Positions 31,979 to 48,839 of a stretch of DNA of 64,000 nt are shown here, piece after piece. Below the pieces are notes generated by a model. It saw nothing but the letters and a program-made list of their open reading frames with translations. It searched no databases and had not been told where the DNA came from. Position 1 is the stretch's first letter. Every line of letters begins with the position of its first letter. Source of the stretch: Mucilaginibacter pedocola (GTDB lineage Bacteria > Bacteroidota > Bacteroidia > Sphingobacteriales > Sphingobacteriaceae); assembly GCF_002013915.1 (NCBI RefSeq), contig NZ_MBTF01000023.1, forward strand, positions 186,001-250,000, written 5' to 3'. The position numbers were made by a program, and so were the translations under genes.

Positions 31979-32476
31979 ATGAAAAAGATATTCCTGATAG
32001 CCACTGTTATTGCTTTTGCCACCATCGCCAAAGCGCAAGATAAACCAACCCTTTATCATCCGGAAGCTGATGCAAAAGCGGAGATTGCCGCAGCCGTTAA
32101 GAAAGCAGCTAAAGGGCATAAAAATGTATTGCTGCAAATTGGCGGCAACTGGTGCAGCTGGTGCCTGCGCTTTAACGGCTTGGTTACCCAAAACGATACG
32201 CTGAATACTTACATGAATACCAATTATGAGGTAGTACACGTAAATTACAGCAAAGAGAACACCAACGATAAATTAATGGCAGAATTGGGTTTCCCGCAGC
32301 GTTTTGGCTTCCCGGTATTTATTATACTGGATGAAAAAGGCAACCGCCTTCACACCCAAAACTCGGCCTACCTGGAAGAAGGTAAAGGCTACAGCTCCGG
32401 CAAAGTGAAAGAGTTTTTTGAGAATTGGGCACCTGTCGCGCTCGATCCTAAGAGCTACGCAGAGAAGACGAAGTAG
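31979..32476 (+). CDS. Secreted thioredoxin-fold protein
   Basis: 165 residues. Signal peptide about 1-19 (AKAQD). Thioredoxin fold with active site GGNWCSWCLRFN (CxxC at about 59-62) and the cis-Pro region FGFPVFIILDEKGN (about 107-120). Likely a periplasmic disulfide reductase, oxidase or heme-maturation helper; the CSWC sequence does not settle which. Alone, with a terminator 60 nt downstream; its stop TAG is the first part of an array of AAGTC words. Confidence 0.85.
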   Translation: MKKIFLIATVIAFATIAKAQDKPTLYHPEADAKAEIAAAVKKAAKGHKNVLLQIGGNWCSWCLRFNGLVTQNDTLNTYMNTNYEVVHVNYSKENTNDKLMAELGFPQRFGFPVFIILDEKGNRLHTQNSAYLEEGKGYSSGKVKEFFENWAPVALDPKSYAEKTK

Positions 32477-32533
32477 TCTTAAGTCTTAAGCCTTAAGTCG
32501 GAAGTCCGCAGTCGGAAAGTCCGAAAGTATTTG

Positions 32534-32572
32534 TAAACGATAAACGCGGCGCTAAGCCGCGTTTATCGTTTA
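32534..32572. terminator. Intrinsic terminator after the thioredoxin gene
   Basis: 16-17 bp perfect stem (32534-32550 with 32556-32572), GCGGC/GCCGC at the top and TTTATCGTTTA at the base. Confidence 0.85.
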
Positions 32573-32677
32573 TAGCCACCACACTATTGCGAGCTTTAGT
32601 GCGGCGTTCTTCGGTTAAGCATTATCGCCTGCACATTGTGAGATTATCGATATAGCTTAGGCTTTGCTATTCCAAAC

Positions 32678-32711
32678 AAAAAGGGTTATCGCATCCACGA
32701 TAACCCTTTTT
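32678..32711 (-). terminator. Intrinsic terminator of pyk
   Basis: 14-bp perfect stem (32678-32691 with 32698-32711), 6-nt loop, with an A/T tract on both ends; it lies 38 nt past the pyk stop. Confidence 0.9.
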
Positions 32712-32748
32712 CAATTTCTTCCGTCTTTCGGACTTTCCGACTTAAGGC

Positions 32749-34185
32749 TTATTCTACCACACTTACGCGCAGCATATTGGTTTTACCCTGTTTGCTGATT
32801 GGTACGGCTGCGGTGTTGATAACCACGTCGCCGGTGCGGATGTGGCCTTCTTGTTTCAATATCTCGTTTACATCGGTAATAGTTTGGTCGGTGCTTTCCA
32901 GTTGGTCGTAGTAGAAAGCGCGTACGCCCCAAACAAGGCTTAATGCGTTAAGCAATTGCTTGTTCGATGTAAATATGTAAGTGCCTGCTTTTGGCCTGTA
33001 GCTCGAAATTTCGAAAGCAGTGTAACCCGAAGTAGTCATAGATACTATACCGGCTGCATTGGTATGCTCGGCAAGGTATACGGCGCTACCGCAAAGATTA
33101 TCGCTCAGGAAGTTCGGGTGAGCAGGGTCGAGGTTCTCGCTTTTCTTAGCATTGAACGGATAACCCAGGTCTTCTACATTGCGAACAATTTTGGCCATAG
33201 TTTCAATAACAATAACCGGGAACTCGCCAACAGATGTTTCGCCGCTCAGCATCACTGCATCAGCACCATCTAATACCGAGTTAGCTACGTCGTTCACCTC
33301 GGCGCGGGTTGGGCGCGGGGTGGTTATCATGCTTTCCAGCATTTGGGTAGCAACAATTACGGGTTTAGCAGCATCGCGGCATTTGCGGGCAATCATTTTT
33401 TGCAGTAATGGTACTTCTTCCAAAGGCATCTCAACACCAAGGTCGCCACGGGCAATCATTACACCGTCGGTAGCAGCAATAATATCATCAATGTTTTCAA
33501 TTGCTTCAGGTTTTTCAACTTTAGCAATTACGCGGGCGCTTTTGCCGCTTTCGCGGATAATGCGTTTCAGGTCTATGATATCCTGGCCGGTACGCACGAA
33601 TGAAAGGCCTATCCAATCCAAATCCCACTCCAGTGCAAATTGCAGGTTGTATAAGTCGTCTTCGGTTAAGCTTGGGATAGATACTTTAGTGTTTGGCAGG
33701 TTAACACCTTTGCGCGATGTTAAGATACCGCCGTGTACCACTTCGCAAACAACGGTGTCTTTACGGTTGGTATCAATAACTTTCAATTGCAGTTTGCCAT
33801 CATCCAACAGGATAATTTCGTTGGCTTGTACATCCTGCGGAAAGGTTGGGTAGGTAATGTATATCTGGTTGTCATCGCCAATACACTCGTTGGTAGTAAT
33901 GTTGATGCGGGTACCGTTTATAAGGTTTATACCGCCATCTTTCACCAATCCAATACGGATTTTAGGGCCTTGCAAATCGGCCAGGATGCTCACATTTGTT
34001 TTGTATTCGGCGTTAATTTCGCGAATAATGTCAACAACTTTTTTGTGGTCTTCCGGCTTTCCATGCGAAAAGTTGAGTCGGCAAACGTTCAATCCTGCCT
34101 GAATCATGGCAATCAAAACGTCTTTTTTTGCTGATGCCGGCCCCATGGTGGCAACAATTTTGGTACGGTTATAATAAAAATTCAT
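32749..34185 (-). CDS. pyk: Pyruvate kinase
   Basis: 478 residues. Transfers phosphate from phosphoenolpyruvate to ADP, last step of glycolysis. N-terminal RTKIVATMGPAS (about 7-18), VCRLNFSHGK (about 34-43), the B domain (about 70-165), and the signature VIAKVEKPEAIENIDDIIAA with the catalytic Lys, followed by DGVMIARGDLGVEMP. The C-terminal domain carries SGYTAFEISSYRP. Full length. Monocistronic with its own terminator. Confidence 0.97.
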   Translation of the reverse strand: MNFYYNRTKIVATMGPASAKKDVLIAMIQAGLNVCRLNFSHGKPEDHKKVVDIIREINAEYKTNVSILADLQGPKIRIGLVKDGGINLINGTRINITTNECIGDDNQIYITYPTFPQDVQANEIILLDDGKLQLKVIDTNRKDTVVCEVVHGGILTSRKGVNLPNTKVSIPSLTEDDLYNLQFALEWDLDWIGLSFVRTGQDIIDLKRIIRESGKSARVIAKVEKPEAIENIDDIIAATDGVMIARGDLGVEMPLEEVPLLQKMIARKCRDAAKPVIVATQMLESMITTPRPTRAEVNDVANSVLDGADAVMLSGETSVGEFPVIVIETMAKIVRNVEDLGYPFNAKKSENLDPAHPNFLSDNLCGSAVYLAEHTNAAGIVSMTTSGYTAFEISSYRPKAGTYIFTSNKQLLNALSLVWGVRAFYYDQLESTDQTITDVNEILKQEGHIRTGDVVINTAAVPISKQGKTNMLRVSVVE

Positions 34186-36347: not shown

Positions 36348-37073
36348 ATGCCTATTAGTCGCTTTTACAAGCTATATATTTCGCCTAACCGCAAGTATGT
36401 GAAGGTTTTAAAGAATTTGCTCGGCTTTGTGCCGGGCAATTTATCTTTATACCGTTTGGCTTTCAGGCATAAATCGGTTGCCCAAAACATCAAAAAAGGC
36501 GTAAAAAATAGTAACGAACGCCTGGAGTTTTTGGGCGATGCCGTATTGGGCAGCGTGGTGGCCGAAGTGCTGTTTAAGCTGTACCCCTACGAAGATGAAG
36601 GCTTTTTAACCGAACTTCGCTCGAAGATCGTAAGCCGAAACAATCTTAATGCCCTGGCCAAGAAGCTTGGCTTTGATAAGCTGATAGAGTTTGATACCAA
36701 AATACTTACCTCGGGCAGGCAGGGCTCGCTGCTGGGCGATGCTTTTGAAGCGCTTATAGGTGCCGTTTACCTCGATAAAGGTTACGATTTCACCCGTAAT
36801 TTTTTGGTGAACCACATCATCAAATCGCATATCGACATACACAAGCTGGAGCAAACCGAAACCAATTTCAAGAGCAAGCTTATTGAGTGGTGCCAGCGCC
36901 ACGGCAAGGATATCAGCTTCGACTTAATAACCAACCTTGACGGCGAAAGCGCCAAACTATTTACCGTACAAGCCAGCATAGATGGCGAAGTATTAGGTTC
37001 CGGCAAAGAATTCAGTAAGAAAAATGCTGAAAAATTAGCCGCCGAAAAGGCTTGTACTGCGCTGGGAATATAG
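36348..37073 (+). CDS. rnc: Ribonuclease III
   Basis: 241 residues. Cuts double-stranded RNA (rRNA and mRNA processing). RNase III signature NERLEFLGDAVLGSVVAE (about 53-70) with the catalytic acidic residues; second acidic block GDAFEALIGAVYLDKG (about 127-142); double-stranded RNA-binding domain at about 172-241 (ETNFKSKLIEWCQRHGKDI, GSGKEFSKKNAEKLAAEKAC). It follows fabF by 9 nt. A GC-rich inverted element starts right at its stop. Confidence 0.97.
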   Translation: MPISRFYKLYISPNRKYVKVLKNLLGFVPGNLSLYRLAFRHKSVAQNIKKGVKNSNERLEFLGDAVLGSVVAEVLFKLYPYEDEGFLTELRSKIVSRNNLNALAKKLGFDKLIEFDTKILTSGRQGSLLGDAFEALIGAVYLDKGYDFTRNFLVNHIIKSHIDIHKLEQTETNFKSKLIEWCQRHGKDISFDLITNLDGESAKLFTVQASIDGEVLGSGKEFSKKNAEKLAAEKACTALGI

Positions 37074-38152: not shown

Positions 38153-39031
38153 ATGATAAAATCCATGACAGGGTATGGAATTGCCAGCTTCGACTCGGGC
38201 AGGACAAAATATACCGTTGAAATTAAATCCCTGAACAGCAAATTCTTAGAGCTTTCGTTACGCTTACCCAAAATATTTTCGGAAAAAGAGTTTCAACTGC
38301 GCAACGATTGCAGCAAGCAGATAGAGCGCGGTAAAGTAAGCCTTTCTATCAATGCGGAGCAAGCCAACGCTGCCGAGGTTAAAGCCGCCGGTATAGATAA
38401 AGTGCTATTGAAGCATTACTACAACCAGCTTAAAGAAGTAAGTGCAGAAGTGGGCGAAGCCGGAGGCAACCTGTTGCAACTGGCCTTAACTTTACCTGAA
38501 GTGGTGAAGTTTGAGGAAGACACCCTATCTGAAGATGAGTGGAAACTGGTTGAAAAAACCTTCAATCAGGCCATGGCTGCTTTCCAGAAGTTCCGCAGCG
38601 ATGAGGGGAATGTGCTGGAGCAAGATATTAGGATGCGCATAGGTATCATCCTGAAGAACCTGGAGCTGGTTGAAATTGAAGAGCCAAAACGCGTACCCGT
38701 TATCCGCGAACGCCTGAACCAGTTTTTGAGCGAAGCTGTTGGCGCCGATAATATGGATAAGAACCGCTTTGAGCAGGAGTTGATATATTTTATTGATAAA
38801 CTGGATATCACCGAAGAGAAAATAAGGCTGAAAACCCATTGCGAGTATTTTTTAGAAACACTGAAGAATGCCGATGCCAACGGTAAAAAACTGGGCTTTA
38901 TATCGCAGGAGATAGGCCGCGAAATAAACACCCTGGGCTCTAAAGCTAACGATGCTGCTATGCAAAAGCTGGTAGTAGGCATGAAAGAAGAACTGGAAAA
39001 AATAAAAGAACAACTTTTAAATGTATTGTAG
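38153..39031 (+). CDS. yicC: YicC/YloC-family endoribonuclease
   Basis: 292 residues from MIKSMTGYGIASF, the conserved family start; two codons upstream (TTG CAC) belong to the promoter box. N-terminal domain with VEIKSLNSKFLELSLRLP and a C-terminal DUF1732 domain with FEQELIYFIDKLDITEEKIR and KLGFISQEIGREINTLGSKA. Members are single-strand RNA endonucleases. It lies upstream of gmk, as in many bacteria. Its TAG stop starts a word array. Confidence 0.95.
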   Translation: MIKSMTGYGIASFDSGRTKYTVEIKSLNSKFLELSLRLPKIFSEKEFQLRNDCSKQIERGKVSLSINAEQANAAEVKAAGIDKVLLKHYYNQLKEVSAEVGEAGGNLLQLALTLPEVVKFEEDTLSEDEWKLVEKTFNQAMAAFQKFRSDEGNVLEQDIRMRIGIILKNLELVEIEEPKRVPVIRERLNQFLSEAVGADNMDKNRFEQELIYFIDKLDITEEKIRLKTHCEYFLETLKNADANGKKLGFISQEIGREINTLGSKANDAAMQKLVVGMKEELEKIKEQLLNVL

Positions 39032-39134
39032 TTCATTGGTTCATTAGTTCAATGGTTTGTATGGTCCTATTAGACAAGGTACTATGCACAAATGAACTAA
39101 TGGACAATTGAACAAGTGAACTAATAAACCAATG
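39029..39134. repeat. Inverted word-repeat pair filling the yicC-gmk gap
   Basis: The left arm starts with the yicC stop: TAGTTCATTGGTTCATTAG, then TTCAATGG. The right arm (39087-39134) holds the complements AACTAATGGACAATTGAAC and GTGAACTAATAAACCAATGA; its last word contains the gmk ATG. 22 of 25 bases of the outermost parts match. Confidence 0.8.
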
Positions 39135-39704
39135 ACCAAAGAAGGTAAACTCATTATATTTTCGGCACCGTCGGGCGCGGGCAAAACTACTATTGTGCAC
39201 CATTTGCTTGGCGAGGTGCCCGATCTGGAATTTTCCATTTCGGCAACTACACGTGCCCCGCGCGGAGATGAGGAAGATGGTAAAGATTACTATTTTATCA
39301 GCCTGCCCGAGTTTACCCACCGCATTGCTAAAAAGCAATTTGTGGAGTTTGAAGAAGTGTATACCGGCACTTTTTACGGCACCCTGCGTGCCGAGATAGA
39401 ACGCATTTGGGCAAAAGGCAAAACCGTAATTTTTGATATCGACGTAGAAGGTGGCCTTCACCTTAAGCGTAAGTATAACGAACAGGCACTTGCCATATTT
39501 GTTCAACCACCATCACTGGAAGTTTTAAAGGAACGCCTGACCGGCCGCGGCACCGATAGCGCCGAAAAACTGGCTGAACGTTTCGAAAAAGCAGAAAAAG
39601 AACTAAACTACGCACCGCAATTTGATATTATCCTCAAAAATTACGATCTTCAGACGGCTTGCAAAGAAGCGAAGACGCTGGTGACGGAATTTATAGCCAG
39701 TTAG
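39132..39704 (+). CDS. gmk: Guanylate kinase
   Basis: 190 residues. Phosphorylates GMP to GDP. P-loop FSAPSGAGKTTIVHHLL (about 11-27), GMP-binding part SISATTRAPRGDEEDGKDYY (about 36-55), VIFDIDVEGGLHLK (about 97-110), and the lid TGRGTDSAEKLAERF. Full length. The TAG stop forms part of the left arm of the inverted repeat that brackets the next gene. Confidence 0.97.
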   Translation: MTKEGKLIIFSAPSGAGKTTIVHHLLGEVPDLEFSISATTRAPRGDEEDGKDYYFISLPEFTHRIAKKQFVEFEEVYTGTFYGTLRAEIERIWAKGKTVIFDIDVEGGLHLKRKYNEQALAIFVQPPSLEVLKERLTGRGTDSAEKLAERFEKAEKELNYAPQFDIILKNYDLQTACKEAKTLVTEFIAS

Positions 39705-39733
39705 CAGTTTGCAGTGCGCGGTTAGCAGTTTGC
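39698..39733. repeat. Left arm of the inverted repeat around the four-helix-bundle gene
   Basis: CAGTTAGCAGTTTGCAG, TGCGCGGTTAGCAGTT: starts inside the last gmk codons and contains its TAG. It matches the complement of 40140-40172 at 28 of 33 positions. Confidence 0.8.
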
Positions 39734-39741
39734 TTTTCTGA

Positions 39742-40110
39742 ATGGGAACATACAAAGATCTGTTGATATATAAGAAAAGCTTCAGTCTGGCGATGGAGAT
39801 TTTTGTGGTTACCAGATCATTCCCCAAAGAAGAAAGGTACTCATTAATAGATCAGATCAGGAGATCTTCCCGCTCTGTTAACATTTGCTCTGTAGAGGCT
39901 TATAGAAAACGCCGATATCCAAACCATTTTGTAAGCAAGTTGACCGACGCTGATATGGAAAACAGCGAAACCCAGGGCTGGTTGGAGTTTGCCCTGGCGT
40001 GTGAATATATAGATAAGGATACCTACGAAAAGCTTTTAGCCCAGTCGGGCGAAATAGGCCGTATTTTACAGTATATGATGGATAACCCTGACAAATTTGG
40101 GGCAGGATAA
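39742..40110 (+). CDS. Four-helix-bundle protein, S23/intervening-sequence family
   Basis: 122 residues. Short helical protein of the family first seen in intervening sequences of 23S rRNA: LLIYKKSFSLAMEIF (about 7-21), SFPKEERYSLIDQIRRSSRS (about 26-45), NICSVEAYRKRR, FVSKLTDADMENSETQGWLE and ACEYIDKDTYEKLL. It belongs with the pentameric Avd accessory proteins of diversity-generating retroelements, but no reverse transcriptase or template repeat is visible. It is bracketed by inverted word repeats that run from the gmk stop to the nadD start. Molecular role unknown. Confidence 0.9.
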   Translation: MGTYKDLLIYKKSFSLAMEIFVVTRSFPKEERYSLIDQIRRSSRSVNICSVEAYRKRRYPNHFVSKLTDADMENSETQGWLEFALACEYIDKDTYEKLLAQSGEIGRILQYMMDNPDKFGAG

Positions 40111-40120
40111 TTTCTCTGAA

Positions 40121-40172
40121 TACTGCTAACTGAAATATTAACTGCCAACTGCACACTGAAAACTGCCAACTG
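40121..40172. repeat. Right arm of the inverted repeat around the four-helix-bundle gene
   Basis: ACTGCTAACTG, AACTGCCAACTGCACACTG, AAAACTGCCAACTG; ends on the base before the nadD ATG. Complement of the arm at 39698-39733. Confidence 0.8.
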
Positions 40173-40745
40173 ATGAAAATAGGCTTACTATTCGGTTCGT
40201 TCAATCCCATACACATAGGGCATTTAATAATTGCCAACTACATGGCCAACCATACCGCACTTGATAAGGTGTGGCTGGTGGTATCACCACAAAACCCGTT
40301 GAAAAAATACGGCGACCTGATAAACACTTACGACCGGCTGGAGATGGCCAAACTGGCTACCGAAAATGCCACCAATATTGCCGTAAGCGATGTGGAGCTG
40401 AAACTGCCACAGCCATCGTACACCATTGATACACTTACCCATCTTAAAGAAAAATACCCCGAGCACGATTTCGCGCTGATAATGGGTTCGGATAACCTGG
40501 CTACGCTGCATAAGTGGAAGAACTATAAACTCATCCTGCGCGATTACCGCATATTTGTTTACCCACGTCCCGGTTACGAAAATGCCGAGTTTGCATCGCA
40601 CCCATCGGTAACTATCACCATGACGCCTCAGATGGAACTGTCGGCAACGTTCATCCGTAAGTCCATAGCCGAGAAAAAGAATGTACAATATTTCGTCCCC
40701 GACCCTGTTTTAAAGTTTATAGAGGCAAAGAATTTGTATAAGTAA
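40173..40745 (+). CDS. nadD: Nicotinate-nucleotide adenylyltransferase
   Basis: 190 residues. Makes NaAD from NaMN and ATP in NAD synthesis. Nucleotidyltransferase motif GSFNPIHIGHLIIANYM (about 8-24) with HxGH, the substrate loop VSPQNPLKKYG (about 38-48), LIMGSDNLATLHKWKN (about 109-124) and the C-terminal SATFIRKSIAEKKNVQYFVP. Starts directly after the inverted arm, 62 nt past the four-helix-bundle gene. Confidence 0.96.
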   Translation: MKIGLLFGSFNPIHIGHLIIANYMANHTALDKVWLVVSPQNPLKKYGDLINTYDRLEMAKLATENATNIAVSDVELKLPQPSYTIDTLTHLKEKYPEHDFALIMGSDNLATLHKWKNYKLILRDYRIFVYPRPGYENAEFASHPSVTITMTPQMELSATFIRKSIAEKKNVQYFVPDPVLKFIEAKNLYK

Positions 40746-40775: not shown

Positions 40776-40952
40776 ATGCTAACGCGGGACAAAGTACAGG
40801 AAATAGTTGCTCACATGCCGGATAAGTTTTCGGTAGATGATTTGGTGGAGAAAATATTGTTGCTTCAAAAAATAGAAATCGGTGAGCAAGAAATACAAAA
40901 TGGCGAGGGAATAGACTGGGAAGATTTAAAAAAAGAAATGGAGCAGTGGTAA
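40776..40952 (+). CDS. Putative antitoxin of a ParE-type module
   Basis: 58 residues, MLTRDKVQEIVAHMPDKF at the start, then SVDDLVEKILLLQKIEIGEQ and an acidic, Trp-containing tail GIDWEDLKKEMEQW. The body is acidic and helical. The layout (small acidic protein directly before and overlapping a ParE/RelE toxin by 7 nt) is that of a type II antitoxin. The KFSVDDLVEKILLLQKIE pattern recurs in Bacteroidota genes beside such toxins, as far as I remember; the family has no name that I can give. Strong Shine-Dalgarno upstream. Confidence 0.75.
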   Translation: MLTRDKVQEIVAHMPDKFSVDDLVEKILLLQKIEIGEQEIQNGEGIDWEDLKKEMEQW

Positions 40953-41257
40953 AGGTTACAATTGCTCCAACTGCCCGCTTAAATATAAGAGAGATCTTCG
41001 ATTATATAAAACGGGATTCAGTTCATTATGCTCAAGTAGAAAAGAGCAGAATAATCGAGGCCATAGATACGCTAAGAGAAAACCCGCTCATTGGAAAAAG
41101 GGTACCTGAACTCGATGATAGTAATTACAGAGAGATACTGTTCAGGCGCTATAGAATTATCTATAAGGTAATCTCTGAAGACGCATTGAATGTGGTCGCT
41201 ATTCAGCACCAGTCGAGATTGCTCTCCAACAATCCTGCGTTTACAAAAGGACTATAA
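40946..41257 (+). CDS. ParE/RelE-family toxin
   Basis: 103 residues, GTG start overlapping the antitoxin end by 7 nt. The RelE fold is visible: KVTIAPTARLNIREIFDYIK (about 3-22), KSRIIEAIDTLRENPLIGKR (about 32-51), YREILFRRYRIIYKVI (about 60-75) and a final VVAIQHQSR strand. The ParE line acts on DNA gyrase, the RelE line on ribosome-bound mRNA; the sequence does not decide. The two genes form a translationally coupled pair, inserted between nadD and miaE. Confidence 0.9.
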   Translation: MVKVTIAPTARLNIREIFDYIKRDSVHYAQVEKSRIIEAIDTLRENPLIGKRVPELDDSNYREILFRRYRIIYKVISEDALNVVAIQHQSRLLSNNPAFTKGL

Positions 41258-42355: not shown

Positions 42356-44320
42356 ATGCACCTGTTTATTAGCCCCAAAACATCCTGCAAGACCAGGGAG
42401 TGGAAACCTTTTGCCCTTTTTTTTGCCTGCACGCTTACCATGCTTGCCGCAAATAACCATGCCCAAGCCCAAAGCCTTGGCGACCCGGTGGTGAACATCA
42501 CTTTTGGCTCGGGCAGTAGTACGCATTCGGGGGCGCTCTCTGCCGATTCGGGCACTACCAGTTATACTTACAGCAGTAACGATTTCCCAAGCGATGGTTC
42601 GTACACTATAGAAAATACTACCGCCGGCGCAGGCAACGTGTGGTGGAGCGGTACCGACCATACGGGCAACACCGGCGGTTACATGATGGTGGTGAACGCC
42701 AGTGTATCCAAAACAGATTACTTTTATAAACGTACCGTTCATGCGCTGTGCTCCAATACTAAATACCAGTTTTCTGCCTGGGTGGTAAATCTGCTGAGGA
42801 GTAGGGATATTAGTCCGCCCAATATTACTTTCTCTATAGAAACAACCGGTGGCACAACTATCCAAAGCTTTAATACGGGCGATATTTCCCTGAAAAGCAG
42901 TTACCAATGGGTACAATACGCCTTTAATTTTACCTTGCCTGCGGGCGTTTCGGATGTGGTTATCAAAATGTCGAACAATAGTGCGGGTGGCGCACCGGCT
43001 AATGATCTCGCCATCGACGATATCGTTTTTCGCCCGTACGGACCGGATATAAAAGCCAGCTTCAGCAGCACTGCAGAAACCGTAGATGCTTCGGCTTGTT
43101 CGGACAACCCTACCAGCTATACCTTAAGCACTACCGCGCCCGATGGTTACTCTATATTATGGCAATACCAAAACAGCGCGGGTGCCTGGGCCGACCTGCC
43201 CGGTGCGAACGCCTCCTCAAATACTTACACCTTCACTTCGCCAATAGTTGCGGGTACTTACAAATACAGGGTGGTGACCGCGCTCACAGATAATATAACC
43301 TCCACGCTTTGCCGCTCGGCATCAAACCAGTTAACGCTAATGGTGGGTTCCTCGCCCTCATCATCGGCAAGTTCTAACTCGCCGGTGTGTGCGGGGCAAA
43401 GTTTATCGCTGAGCGCCTGGGCTGGTGCGTCCTGGGCGTGGACGGGGCCTAACGGCTTTACCTCGAACGTGCAAAATCCTATTATAAACCCCGTGAGCGA
43501 GGCAGCAACAGGCACCTACTATGTTACCGTAACATCGGCATCTAACTGCGTGGTAGTTGCGCAGGTTGATGTAAGCGTAAAAGCACAACCCGTAGCAGTA
43601 GCCGGCGCGATAAGTACCGAGATATGCGAAGGTAACTCTACCGCACTAACCGCAAGCGGCGGCGAAACTTATGCGTGGCTGCCCGTAACCGGTTTATCTA
43701 ACCCTAACATTGCCAACCCCGTTGCCAGCCCTGCACAAACTACTACGTATACCGTAACTGTTAGCAACAGCAGCGCCTGCACAAGTACGGCAACGGTTAT
43801 TATTAATGTATTGAAGAAACCGACGGCCAGTGCCGGGGCAGATAAGCATATTACCCAAACCCAATCGGTAACGTTGGATGGCAGCGCTGGTGGCACCAAC
43901 GTAAGTTATTACTGGACGGCCTCTGATGGCTCTGCAGCCCCCGAAGGGCTTACACCAACGGTAAGCCCGCTGGAAGATATTACTTATACGCTTCACGTGC
44001 TCTCCAACGCAGGCTGCGGGTTAGAGGCTACCGACGACGTATTCGTACGCGTCTACAAAAAAGTGACGATCCCCAATACTTTTACCCCCAATGGCGATGC
44101 CGTTAACGATACCTGGGAAGTAGGCGCATTAGATACCTACCCCGAAGCCACCACGCAGGTATTTAACCGCTATGGCTCGGTGGTATTCAGCAGCCTGGGT
44201 TACCCCAAAGCCTGGGACGGCAACAGCAACGGCCAGCAACTACCGGCAGGAACCTACTACTACAAAATAGACCTGAAGAACGGCAACGTGCTGAGCGGTT
44301 GGGTGTTGGTGGTGAGGTAG
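42356..44320 (+). CDS. Secreted multidomain protein with T9SS type B sorting domain
   Basis: 654 residues from MHLFISPK; an ATG 13 codons upstream is also possible. Hydrophobic signal region about 20-38 (PFALFFACTLTMLAANNHAQ). N-terminal jelly-roll (about 45-235, with WVQYAFNFTLPAGVSDVVIKM and NDLAIDDIVFRPYG as separate blocks). Then Ig/PKD-like units at about 240-330, 335-415, 418-490 (AGAISTEICEGNSTALTASG) and 492-570. The last 80 residues are the gliding motility-associated C-terminal domain: TIPNTFTPNGDAVNDTWEVG, VFNRYGSVVFSS, PAGTYYYKIDLKNG. This domain is the T9SS export and attachment signal. Ligand unknown. Confidence 0.92.
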   Translation: MHLFISPKTSCKTREWKPFALFFACTLTMLAANNHAQAQSLGDPVVNITFGSGSSTHSGALSADSGTTSYTYSSNDFPSDGSYTIENTTAGAGNVWWSGTDHTGNTGGYMMVVNASVSKTDYFYKRTVHALCSNTKYQFSAWVVNLLRSRDISPPNITFSIETTGGTTIQSFNTGDISLKSSYQWVQYAFNFTLPAGVSDVVIKMSNNSAGGAPANDLAIDDIVFRPYGPDIKASFSSTAETVDASACSDNPTSYTLSTTAPDGYSILWQYQNSAGAWADLPGANASSNTYTFTSPIVAGTYKYRVVTALTDNITSTLCRSASNQLTLMVGSSPSSSASSNSPVCAGQSLSLSAWAGASWAWTGPNGFTSNVQNPIINPVSEAATGTYYVTVTSASNCVVVAQVDVSVKAQPVAVAGAISTEICEGNSTALTASGGETYAWLPVTGLSNPNIANPVASPAQTTTYTVTVSNSSACTSTATVIINVLKKPTASAGADKHITQTQSVTLDGSAGGTNVSYYWTASDGSAAPEGLTPTVSPLEDITYTLHVLSNAGCGLEATDDVFVRVYKKVTIPNTFTPNGDAVNDTWEVGALDTYPEATTQVFNRYGSVVFSSLGYPKAWDGNSNGQQLPAGTYYYKIDLKNGNVLSGWVLVVR

Positions 44321-44409
44321 TTGGCGGTGGGCGGTTGGTAGTATGCAGTTGACAGTTTGCGGTGGGCGGTTAGCAGTTCTCAGTTGGCGGTTTGCATAGG
44401 GCAGTTCGC
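44318..44409. repeat. Word repeats starting on the stop codon of the T9SS cargo gene
   Basis: TAGTTGGCGGTGGGCGGTTGG, AGTTTGCGGTGGGCGGTTAG, CAGTTGGCGGTTTGC: same word family as the arms at 39698 and 40121, all in one orientation. The TAG stop is the start of the first word. Confidence 0.65.
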
Positions 44410-48639: not shown

Positions 48640-48700
48640 TAATTCAGTTTGCAGTTAACGGTGGGAGAGTTTGCAGTTTGCGGTGCGCAGTTTGCAGTTA
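48640..48700. repeat. Word repeat upstream of the RsmI-like gene
   Basis: CAGTTTGCAGTTAACGGTGG, AGTTTGCAGTTTGCGGTGCG, CAGTTTGCAGTTATT: same word family as 39698 and 44318. One orientation only. Confidence 0.6.
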
Positions 48701-48711
48701 TTATAAAACTA

Positions 48712-48839
48712 TGTCATTGCGAGCCGCAGCGGGAGGGTTGGTGAGAAGGGGTGGCGTGGCAATCTCATAGGACAGTCCTCCATGCAGAATTCGGTACCTG
48801 TCCTATAAGATTGCTTCGTCGTTCCTCCTCGCAATGACA
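48712..48839. repeat. Long inverted repeat of the GTCATTGCGAG type
   Basis: The left arm begins TGTCATTGCGAG and ends GCAATCTCATAGGACAG; the right arm carries CTGTCCTATAAGATTGC and ends CTCGCAATGACA. A widespread class of dispersed repeats carries these same ends. Confidence 0.8.

Follow-up and report, generated by a model that had tools for sequence, protein, structure and literature searches.

The gmk-nadD interval of Mucilaginibacter pedocola raises the question of why a gene for an S23-family protein should sit between two protein genes, enclosed by inverted arrays of a seven-nucleotide word. The window analysed here is a stretch of 64,000 nucleotides (contig NZ_MBTF01000023.1, positions 186,001 to 250,000), and the features discussed below are collected in Table 1. 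A first-pass annotation of the window had proposed that the S23 gene and its arms form an element resembling the intervening sequences (IVS) of 23S rRNA, with the protein acting on such words and with gene-free arrays as passive derivatives. Coordinates, repeats and Pfam and TIGR matches confirmed an S23 gene inside inverted 7-nt word arrays in the gmk-nadD gap. The unit also fills that gap as described, since the left arm contains the gmk stop codon and the right arm ends on the base before the nadD ATG. It is not inserted in a 23S rRNA gene, and Rfam gave nothing at the gathering threshold within the window.

Table 1. Positions in the window of the gmk-S23-nadD unit, its neighbours and gene-free word arrays.
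Feature	Position	Strand	Description
gmk, guanylate kinase	39132-39704	+	upstream neighbour, co-directional
Left arm	39698-39733	+	heptamer array CAGTTAG CAGTTTG CAGTGCG CGGTTAG CAGTTTG; gmk stop codon inside
S23-family (23S_rRNA_IVP / Avd-like) four-helix-bundle gene	39742-40110	+	122 aa, divergent subfamily; PF05635, TIGR02436, Foldseek
Right arm	40121-40172	+	inverted heptamer array ACTGCTA..AACTGCC AACTGCA CACTGAA AACTGCC AACTG; abuts nadD start
nadD-type cytidylyltransferase-like gene	40173-40745	+	downstream neighbour, co-directional
Gene-free word-array hairpin AAGTCTTAAGTC..AAGTCGGAAAGTCCGAAAG	32464-32751		inverted arms within 32487-32527 and 32725-32751
Gene-free 8-nt-word hairpin TTCATTGG/TTCATTAG, yicC-gmk gap	39031-39135		two 25-nt arms with 88% complementarity; repeats on the right-hand side at a spacing of 8
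Gene-free heptamer array AGTTNGC	44319-44409	+	about 13 units by eye, single orientation
Gene-free heptamer array CAGTTTGCAGTTA	48645-48700		3 copies

The exact arm complementarity first annotated, 28 of 33 bases, could not be recovered; being arrays of words, the arms can pair in several registers. A repeat search matched 15 of 17 bases (39698-39714 with 40116-40132), and the best local alignment of the arms scored 23, with about 33 matches in 42 columns and one gap, running a few bases into gmk and nadD alike. When placements were slid along the window, 2 of 418 reached a score of 16, one of them being the S23 element. The transcript was also folded, as had been suggested, and the two arms are predicted to pair at the base of the unit, bases from 39698 onward pairing with bases ending at 40172. 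The predicted energy was -141.4 kcal/mol, compared with -120.6 +/- 5.9 for 100 shuffles (z -3.56), and the unit was steadier than every shuffle. In sequence and in predicted fold alike, complementary ends form a stem around the S23 ORF. Elsewhere in the neighbourhood, the gene-free hairpin of 8-nt words in the yicC-gmk gap represents a period-8 word class alongside that of period 7. A small ORF after nadD (40946-41257) resembles, by eye, a toxin of the RelE/ParE type, and the ORF immediately before it may encode the antitoxin.

The enclosed protein is a divergent but sound S23. It matches PF05635 (E 5e-27, 94.6 bits, cut-off 33.8) and TIGR02436 (E 5e-25), and Pfam bAvd is also above its cut-off. 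The predicted structure has a mean pLDDT of 96.4, and the best Foldseek hits of this model are 2gsc and 2rld, of five chains each, followed by Avd (4dwl) and the DGR complex 8ub8. The Xanthomonas S23 protein is described as a homopentamer, and the role of the S23/IVP family as unknown, in the account given in PMC4990558. At the Pfam level the 7.0 Mb genome has three S23 genes, all of them framed by inverted word arrays with a different word each, and a genome is thus not limited to one word. A separate observation concerns another of these genes (locus L009), which is surrounded by AAGTCCGA period-8 words.

The proposal predicts inverted arms around other S23 genes, and this main test was run on 173 S23 loci from Bacteroidota and relatives: the three of this genome, 30 from a family search, 60 more places from the list of that search, and the best 80 of 576 confirmed relatives in named genomes. 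These are top-scoring members rather than a random sample, and one locus (L011), missed by the custom profile, was added by hand. With six duplicates out, 9 of the 167 unique loci were dropped for a short protein or a flank under 200 nt, and 158 were scored. At a threshold score of at least 16, inverted arms were found at 119 of 158 loci, with 39 scoring below it. The same flanks in direct orientation passed at 22 of 158 loci, reversed only at 10 and complemented only at 18, and a displaced-position control passed at 3 of the 102 loci long enough for one. The best period, in a range of 3-15 nt, was 7 or 14 in 111 of the 119 armed loci. The test did not refute the proposal, and both an IVS-like unit outside rRNA and the generality of the arms are supported. 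Cross-locus swaps and dinucleotide shuffles had served as a first null, with 66 of 158 loci above the swap 95th percentile and 3 of 158 above the shuffle 99.9th. Unrelated loci have word types in common and flanks of low complexity inflate the shuffles, which makes this null a poor control; the orientation and position controls were then used.

S23 genes on plasmids extend the picture to other phyla. Fourteen loci (13 from Cyanobacteriota, one from Gemmatimonadota), taken from 46 records, were judged by inverted against direct score, and the inverted score reached at least 16 in 9 of 14, with words such as GGGAACA and GTAGGGA (by eye). In two of those nine the direct score rivals the inverted one (L353, direct 69 vs 28; L363, with gene ends set by hand, direct 34 vs 35), leaving seven clear inverted cases; a further locus, L364, has direct arrays only. 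On three cyanobacterial plasmids (L353, L354 and L362) a co-directional S23 gene lies inside a CRISPR-cas operon with word arrays alongside, in the order cas6-S23-cas4 twice and cas10-S23-cmr3 once. The 23S rRNA IVP is named in the legend to a figure of CRISPR adaptation modules (PMC10910872), a mention that such operons may explain.

The arms follow a loose grammar. Left arms read roughly AG[T/A]NNNN, and AG recurs every seven bases in a median of 0.67 of units compared with 0.26 in shuffles, the best phase being chosen in both. The recurrence reaches at least 0.75 in 55 of 116 arms, and the most conserved dinucleotide is AG in 42 and GT in 33 of the 116. The word itself varies by locus: AGTTTGC at gmk-nadD and AGTATTG, AGATTTG, AAGTTAT or TATCAAG at others. 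A left arm matched its own right arm at a score of at least 16 in 40 of 48 cases, compared with 7 of 54 when set against another S23 locus of the same genome. For comparisons within one genomic place, loci were grouped according to the neighbour proteins, upstream and downstream, that they have in common; judged by eye, the largest cluster combines two or more neighbouring gaps of a fatty-acid-oxidation operon, whose gene names were likewise assigned by eye. Own arms beat swapped arms in six of the seven clusters of three or more loci, with own/swapped medians of 19/12 (n=72), 22/12 (n=21), 16.5/14 (n=16) and 22/17.5 (n=6) and, in the remaining clusters, 21/21 (n=5), 17/12.5 (n=4) and 19/12 (n=3). 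Both arms of an element thus carry a common word, even when its relatives at the same place have a different one.

A register between the arms beyond shared words was also considered, and 7-nt block shuffling hinted at one (60 of 116 loci). Score-matched swaps behaved alike (own arms 63/116 vs swapped 69/118), as did swaps between different sites (60/116 vs 69/114); own arms thus come to 52-54% and swapped arms to 58-61%, and this calibrated test shows no register beyond shared words. The apparent register arose because the best alignment had been selected, and the claim was therefore dropped. What stands of the complementarity first annotated is that the arms match; the match is owed to their common word type, with no further register.

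The same words also occur away from S23 genes. The gene-free words noticed near 44318 and 48640 are real arrays (Table 1), and within the scanned stretches neither is matched by inverted words. ACTG words of the gmk unit occur in at least 18 array places of this genome, one being the unit itself, counted among the matches listed, part of 148 hits. Of thirty array loci of this genome that were read, some overlapping, 10 lie within 400 nt of an inverted partner; a direct partner at that score was found at none. Gene-free arrays outnumber S23 genes both here and in G007, a genome with one S23 gene, where only one of 35 separate array places among the matches listed lies less than 1 kb from it. 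In G007, 0.53 of 38 array words (from five array loci) occur in the flanks of its own S23 gene and 0.00 in the flanks of five other genomes. This word-sharing test was mixed in those five, which are interrelated genomes with one S23 gene each: G127, G064 and G096 match their own flanks as well as each other's (0.48-0.63), whereas such words are absent from the flanks of the S23 genes of G083 and G016. Beside 84 array loci from 28 genomes (some of them overlapping, with 1.3 kb searched at each), no S23 remains were detected at E 0.01, and a repeat with two S23 loci as positive controls found only those two; derivatives with recognisable remains are therefore not common.

Arrays and S23 genes go together across genomes. 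Arrays, defined as five ACTs set 7 nt apart, were counted over the whole of the 151 family genomes covered by the S23 scan, since 20-kb samples (10 stretches each) had given too few counts (lag-7 arrays, 1 in S23-lacking vs 5 in S23-rich genomes). Among the family genomes, 105 of 118 that have S23 contain such arrays vs 5 of 33 without (Fisher p 1e-15), and with ACT or the reversed word at four hits or more the association stratified by genus gives p 2e-8. A draw from the phylum comprised 118 genomes, four of them common to the family draw, and found arrays in 68 of 90 genomes with S23 vs 4 of 28 without (p 8e-9; p 2e-8 minus those four). Similarly, period-8 arrays (ACT every 8 nt) occur in 38 of 118 genomes with S23 vs 1 of 33 without. 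The presence of gene-free copies goes with that of the gene, as a correlation in which S23 was the sole gene family tested. Together with the words shared in G007, it lends indirect support to the proposal that S23 acts on such words.

The rule is broken in both directions. The ACT pattern is missing from 13 of 118 S23 genomes in the family draw and 22 of 90 in the phylum draw. Conversely, arrays occur in the S23-lacking genomes G006 (16 hits), G047 (17), G077 (2), G078 (1) and G087 (3) of the family draw and G220 (4), G235 (9), G241 (158) and G250 (24) of the phylum draw, and the reversed word only in G008 (6), G162 (11), G182 (3) and four more with one hit. PF05635 had no match in G006, G047, G241 or G250, and TIGR02436 none over its cut-off in G006 or G047. 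G241 and G250 deserve a look, for another partner protein or for recent loss.

Comparison of orthologous gmk-nadD gaps, another check proposed at the outset, found empty, S23-bearing and gene-free hairpin states. nadD was found in 60 of 61 genomes, and of 50 gaps read, 47 have gmk directly upstream. S23 is present in 2 of these 47, the window and G014, a genome of the same genus whose S23 is 75% identical to that of the window and whose arms belong to the same word family. In another genus, the gap of G056 holds an 83-nt gene-free hairpin of the same words, with a loop that reads NPDKFGQ-stop. The S23 protein of the window ends in NPDKFGAG-stop, and NPDKFG occurs 0 times in 799,920 control residues. 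Because the last codons of the S23 gene are kept, the hairpin appears to be a deletion derivative, and judged from its sequence it is most simply a remnant of an S23 unit. The idea of gene-free copies as derivatives thus has one instance, at the same site in another genus. The gap of G058 contains a gene-free heptamer hairpin of other words (by eye). Apart from the gaps with hairpins or a palindrome described below, the remaining gaps measure -8 to 84 nt and show no clear array by eye, with a few word-like units in L112 and L367.

Some further observations belong to these sites. In two genomes of the same genus (L103 and L104) the gmk-nadD gap carries, by eye, a GC-rich hairpin, reading CCCCCTAAAGGGGG..CCCCCTTTATGGGGG in one, and in L104 an AACTG word is retained ahead of the nadD ATG. 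At 48712-48839 of the window, beside a gene-free word array, lies a palindromic repeat of the TGTCATTGCGAG / CTCGCAATGACA type, and by eye a similar repeat fills the gmk-nadD gap of G013 (L370). On contig C24 of G056, near 87391-87715, the single S23 gene seems split into two frames (profile positions 1-82 and 65-109); given this split gene, G056 may be losing S23 altogether.

A second gap, that of locus L013 between a thiolase-like gene and its upstream partner, was followed in the same way. The thiolase-like gene is present in 13 of 16 S23-lacking genomes, and the corresponding gaps measure -2 to 129 nt, with arm-like words kept in two (G067 and G074, by eye). No insertion with target duplication was seen in the gaps, where duplications are indistinguishable from words. 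Near-identical S23 copies at two sites were likewise not seen; the most similar proteins at different sites reach about 0.85, and recent movement is therefore unsupported. Set beside the target-site duplication and fixed terminal inverted repeats that mark an insertion sequence or MITE, the unit has arms built as word arrays, with different words at different loci.

Close S23 orthologs are under purifying selection. Among the 25 same-cluster pairs with the lowest dS, 13 have dN of at most 0.10 and dN/dS of 0.03-0.16. The other 12, which look like different clades, have dN of 0.33-0.44 and dN/dS of 0.35-0.48; the median dN/dS over all 262 same-cluster pairs is 0.30. By an ORF-length rule, the upstream gene is co-directional with S23 in 151 of 156 cases and the downstream gene in 141 of 151. 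One shared-neighbour cluster includes 72 loci, and the named genera in it are as distant from one another as Pedobacter, Hymenobacter, Roseivirga and Flavobacterium. Co-direction and selection fit an RNA-level element that is carried in operons and whose protein is in use.

The best reading of these results, which we hold to be moderately likely, is an IVS-like RNA-level element outside rRNA whose S23 protein acts in trans on heptamer arrays. Gene and arms would together form one unit, placed in short gaps between co-directional genes, and because of this co-direction we infer that the element is transcribed along with the host operon. The inverted heptamer arms would then produce a long imperfect RNA stem closing over the S23 message, and RNase III would cut the element out and spare the flanking cistrons, by analogy with known rRNA IVS. 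The S23 protein, probably an Avd-like four-helix-bundle ring of the kind seen in its solved relatives of five chains, would recognise words set at heptad spacing and help arrays of them to form or spread, also in trans; a copying mechanism and mobility are likewise proposed. The gene-free arrays and hairpins scattered elsewhere would, on this reading, be copies that are non-autonomous or have decayed. Separately, an ORF of the window at 36348-37073 was read as rnc by eye, as in the first-pass annotation.

The main rival, which we consider somewhat unlikely, makes the unit a resident regulatory module: S23 would bind the arms of its own or other transcripts and control operon stability or translation, and the arrays would have spread by ordinary slippage and recombination and been kept as binding sites. 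Purifying selection on close orthologs and near-strict co-direction are what such a module would show, as is a neighbour cluster whose 72 loci reach from Pedobacter to Flavobacterium, and heptamer repeats of Beggiatoaceae have been proposed as translational regulatory sites (PMC4679880). Against it stand the different words at loci of one genome, the lack of the unit at gmk-nadD in most relatives, and a deletion derivative that lost the gene and kept the hairpin. Both readings predict that S23 binds the words; they differ in whether S23 alters array number or flanking-gene expression.

It is improbable that the heptamer hairpins pre-exist, for example through replication slippage, and that S23 genes insert preferentially there. 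The greater number of gene-free arrays than S23 genes in this genome and in G007 would agree with that order of events, but S23-less genomes are mostly without arrays, within genera too, and in most of the empty orthologous gaps no array can be seen by eye. Furthermore, the sole gene-free hairpin at gmk-nadD with matching words, that of G056, contains S23 remains, and the gene therefore came first at that site. Shared ancestry or ecology, with repeat-tolerant lineages keeping both arrays and S23 without a functional tie, is very improbable: genomes that break the rule in both directions are as it would predict, but the association survives genus stratification and arrays physically frame most scored S23 genes.

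An IVS-like element acting at the RNA level would give the S23/IVP family a genomic logic, and the results point to a widespread, little-noticed genetic element. It would join three oddities that were described separately, namely rRNA IVS, orphan heptamer repeats and stand-alone four-helix-bundle genes in operons, and it may explain S23-type genes inside other operons, those of CRISPR-cas on cyanobacterial plasmids included. As a possibility that we offer tentatively, a two-component repeat system may exist in several phyla, in which an Avd-like ring reads an NAG anchor every seven nucleotides and, with no transposase of its own, causes word arrays to be copied; its products might include both rRNA IVS and the orphan heptamer repeats long known from Bacteroidota and Cyanobacteria. 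A testable question follows: does S23 make, bind or process heptamer arrays?

Several known systems share parts of this architecture. REPIN/RAYT systems consist of one gene flanked by inverted repeat units and accompanied by gene-free genomic copies. The unit resembles them in its flanked gene and in many gene-free copies that go with that gene; it differs in that the enclosed gene is S23 rather than a Y1 (HuH) transposase and in that the arms are 7-nt word arrays, not fixed palindromes. The cyanobacterial STRR are intergenic heptamer direct repeats. TAACTGA direct repeats of this kind are described between genes of Beggiatoaceae, Cyanobacteria and Bacteroidetes (PMC4679880). They share the 7-nt period, and TAACTGA fits the right-arm grammar of CT every 7 nt. 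Unlike the window unit, they are described without a partner gene, and "S23", "four-helix" and "intervening" occur 0 times in the main text of PMC4679880, which speculates that the mobile element might be a protein that binds the repeats.

The window S23 is also likened to Avd of diversity-generating retroelements (4dwl, 8ub8), with the same predicted fold at a Foldseek probability of 1.00 and a TM by query of 0.75-0.79; unlike in such a retroelement, its direct neighbours are gmk and nadD and not a reverse transcriptase. In layout the unit is like the 23S rRNA IVS of Coxiella and Leptospira, where an S23 ORF likewise lies between complementary ends (PMC4990558). The Coxiella element further resembles the unit in its heptamer repeats just upstream of the S23 ORF: tandem GACAGAT heptamers stand directly before it, the RNase III site is the start of the first heptamer, and the element is excised by RNase III in vitro, as reported in PMC4990558. 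In contrast to rRNA IVS, the window unit stands between protein genes, its arms are heptamer arrays whose word varies by locus, and many gene-free arrays occur elsewhere in the genome. In addition, S23 is conserved by selection here, whereas in Coxiella it is described as degrading (PMC4990558). Our literature search, with most subscription papers lying outside it, gave no paper among the matches listed that links S23 genes outside rRNA with heptamer arms. The parts, S23, rRNA IVS and heptamer repeats, are already known; among the same matches, their union outside rRNA at this scale did not appear.
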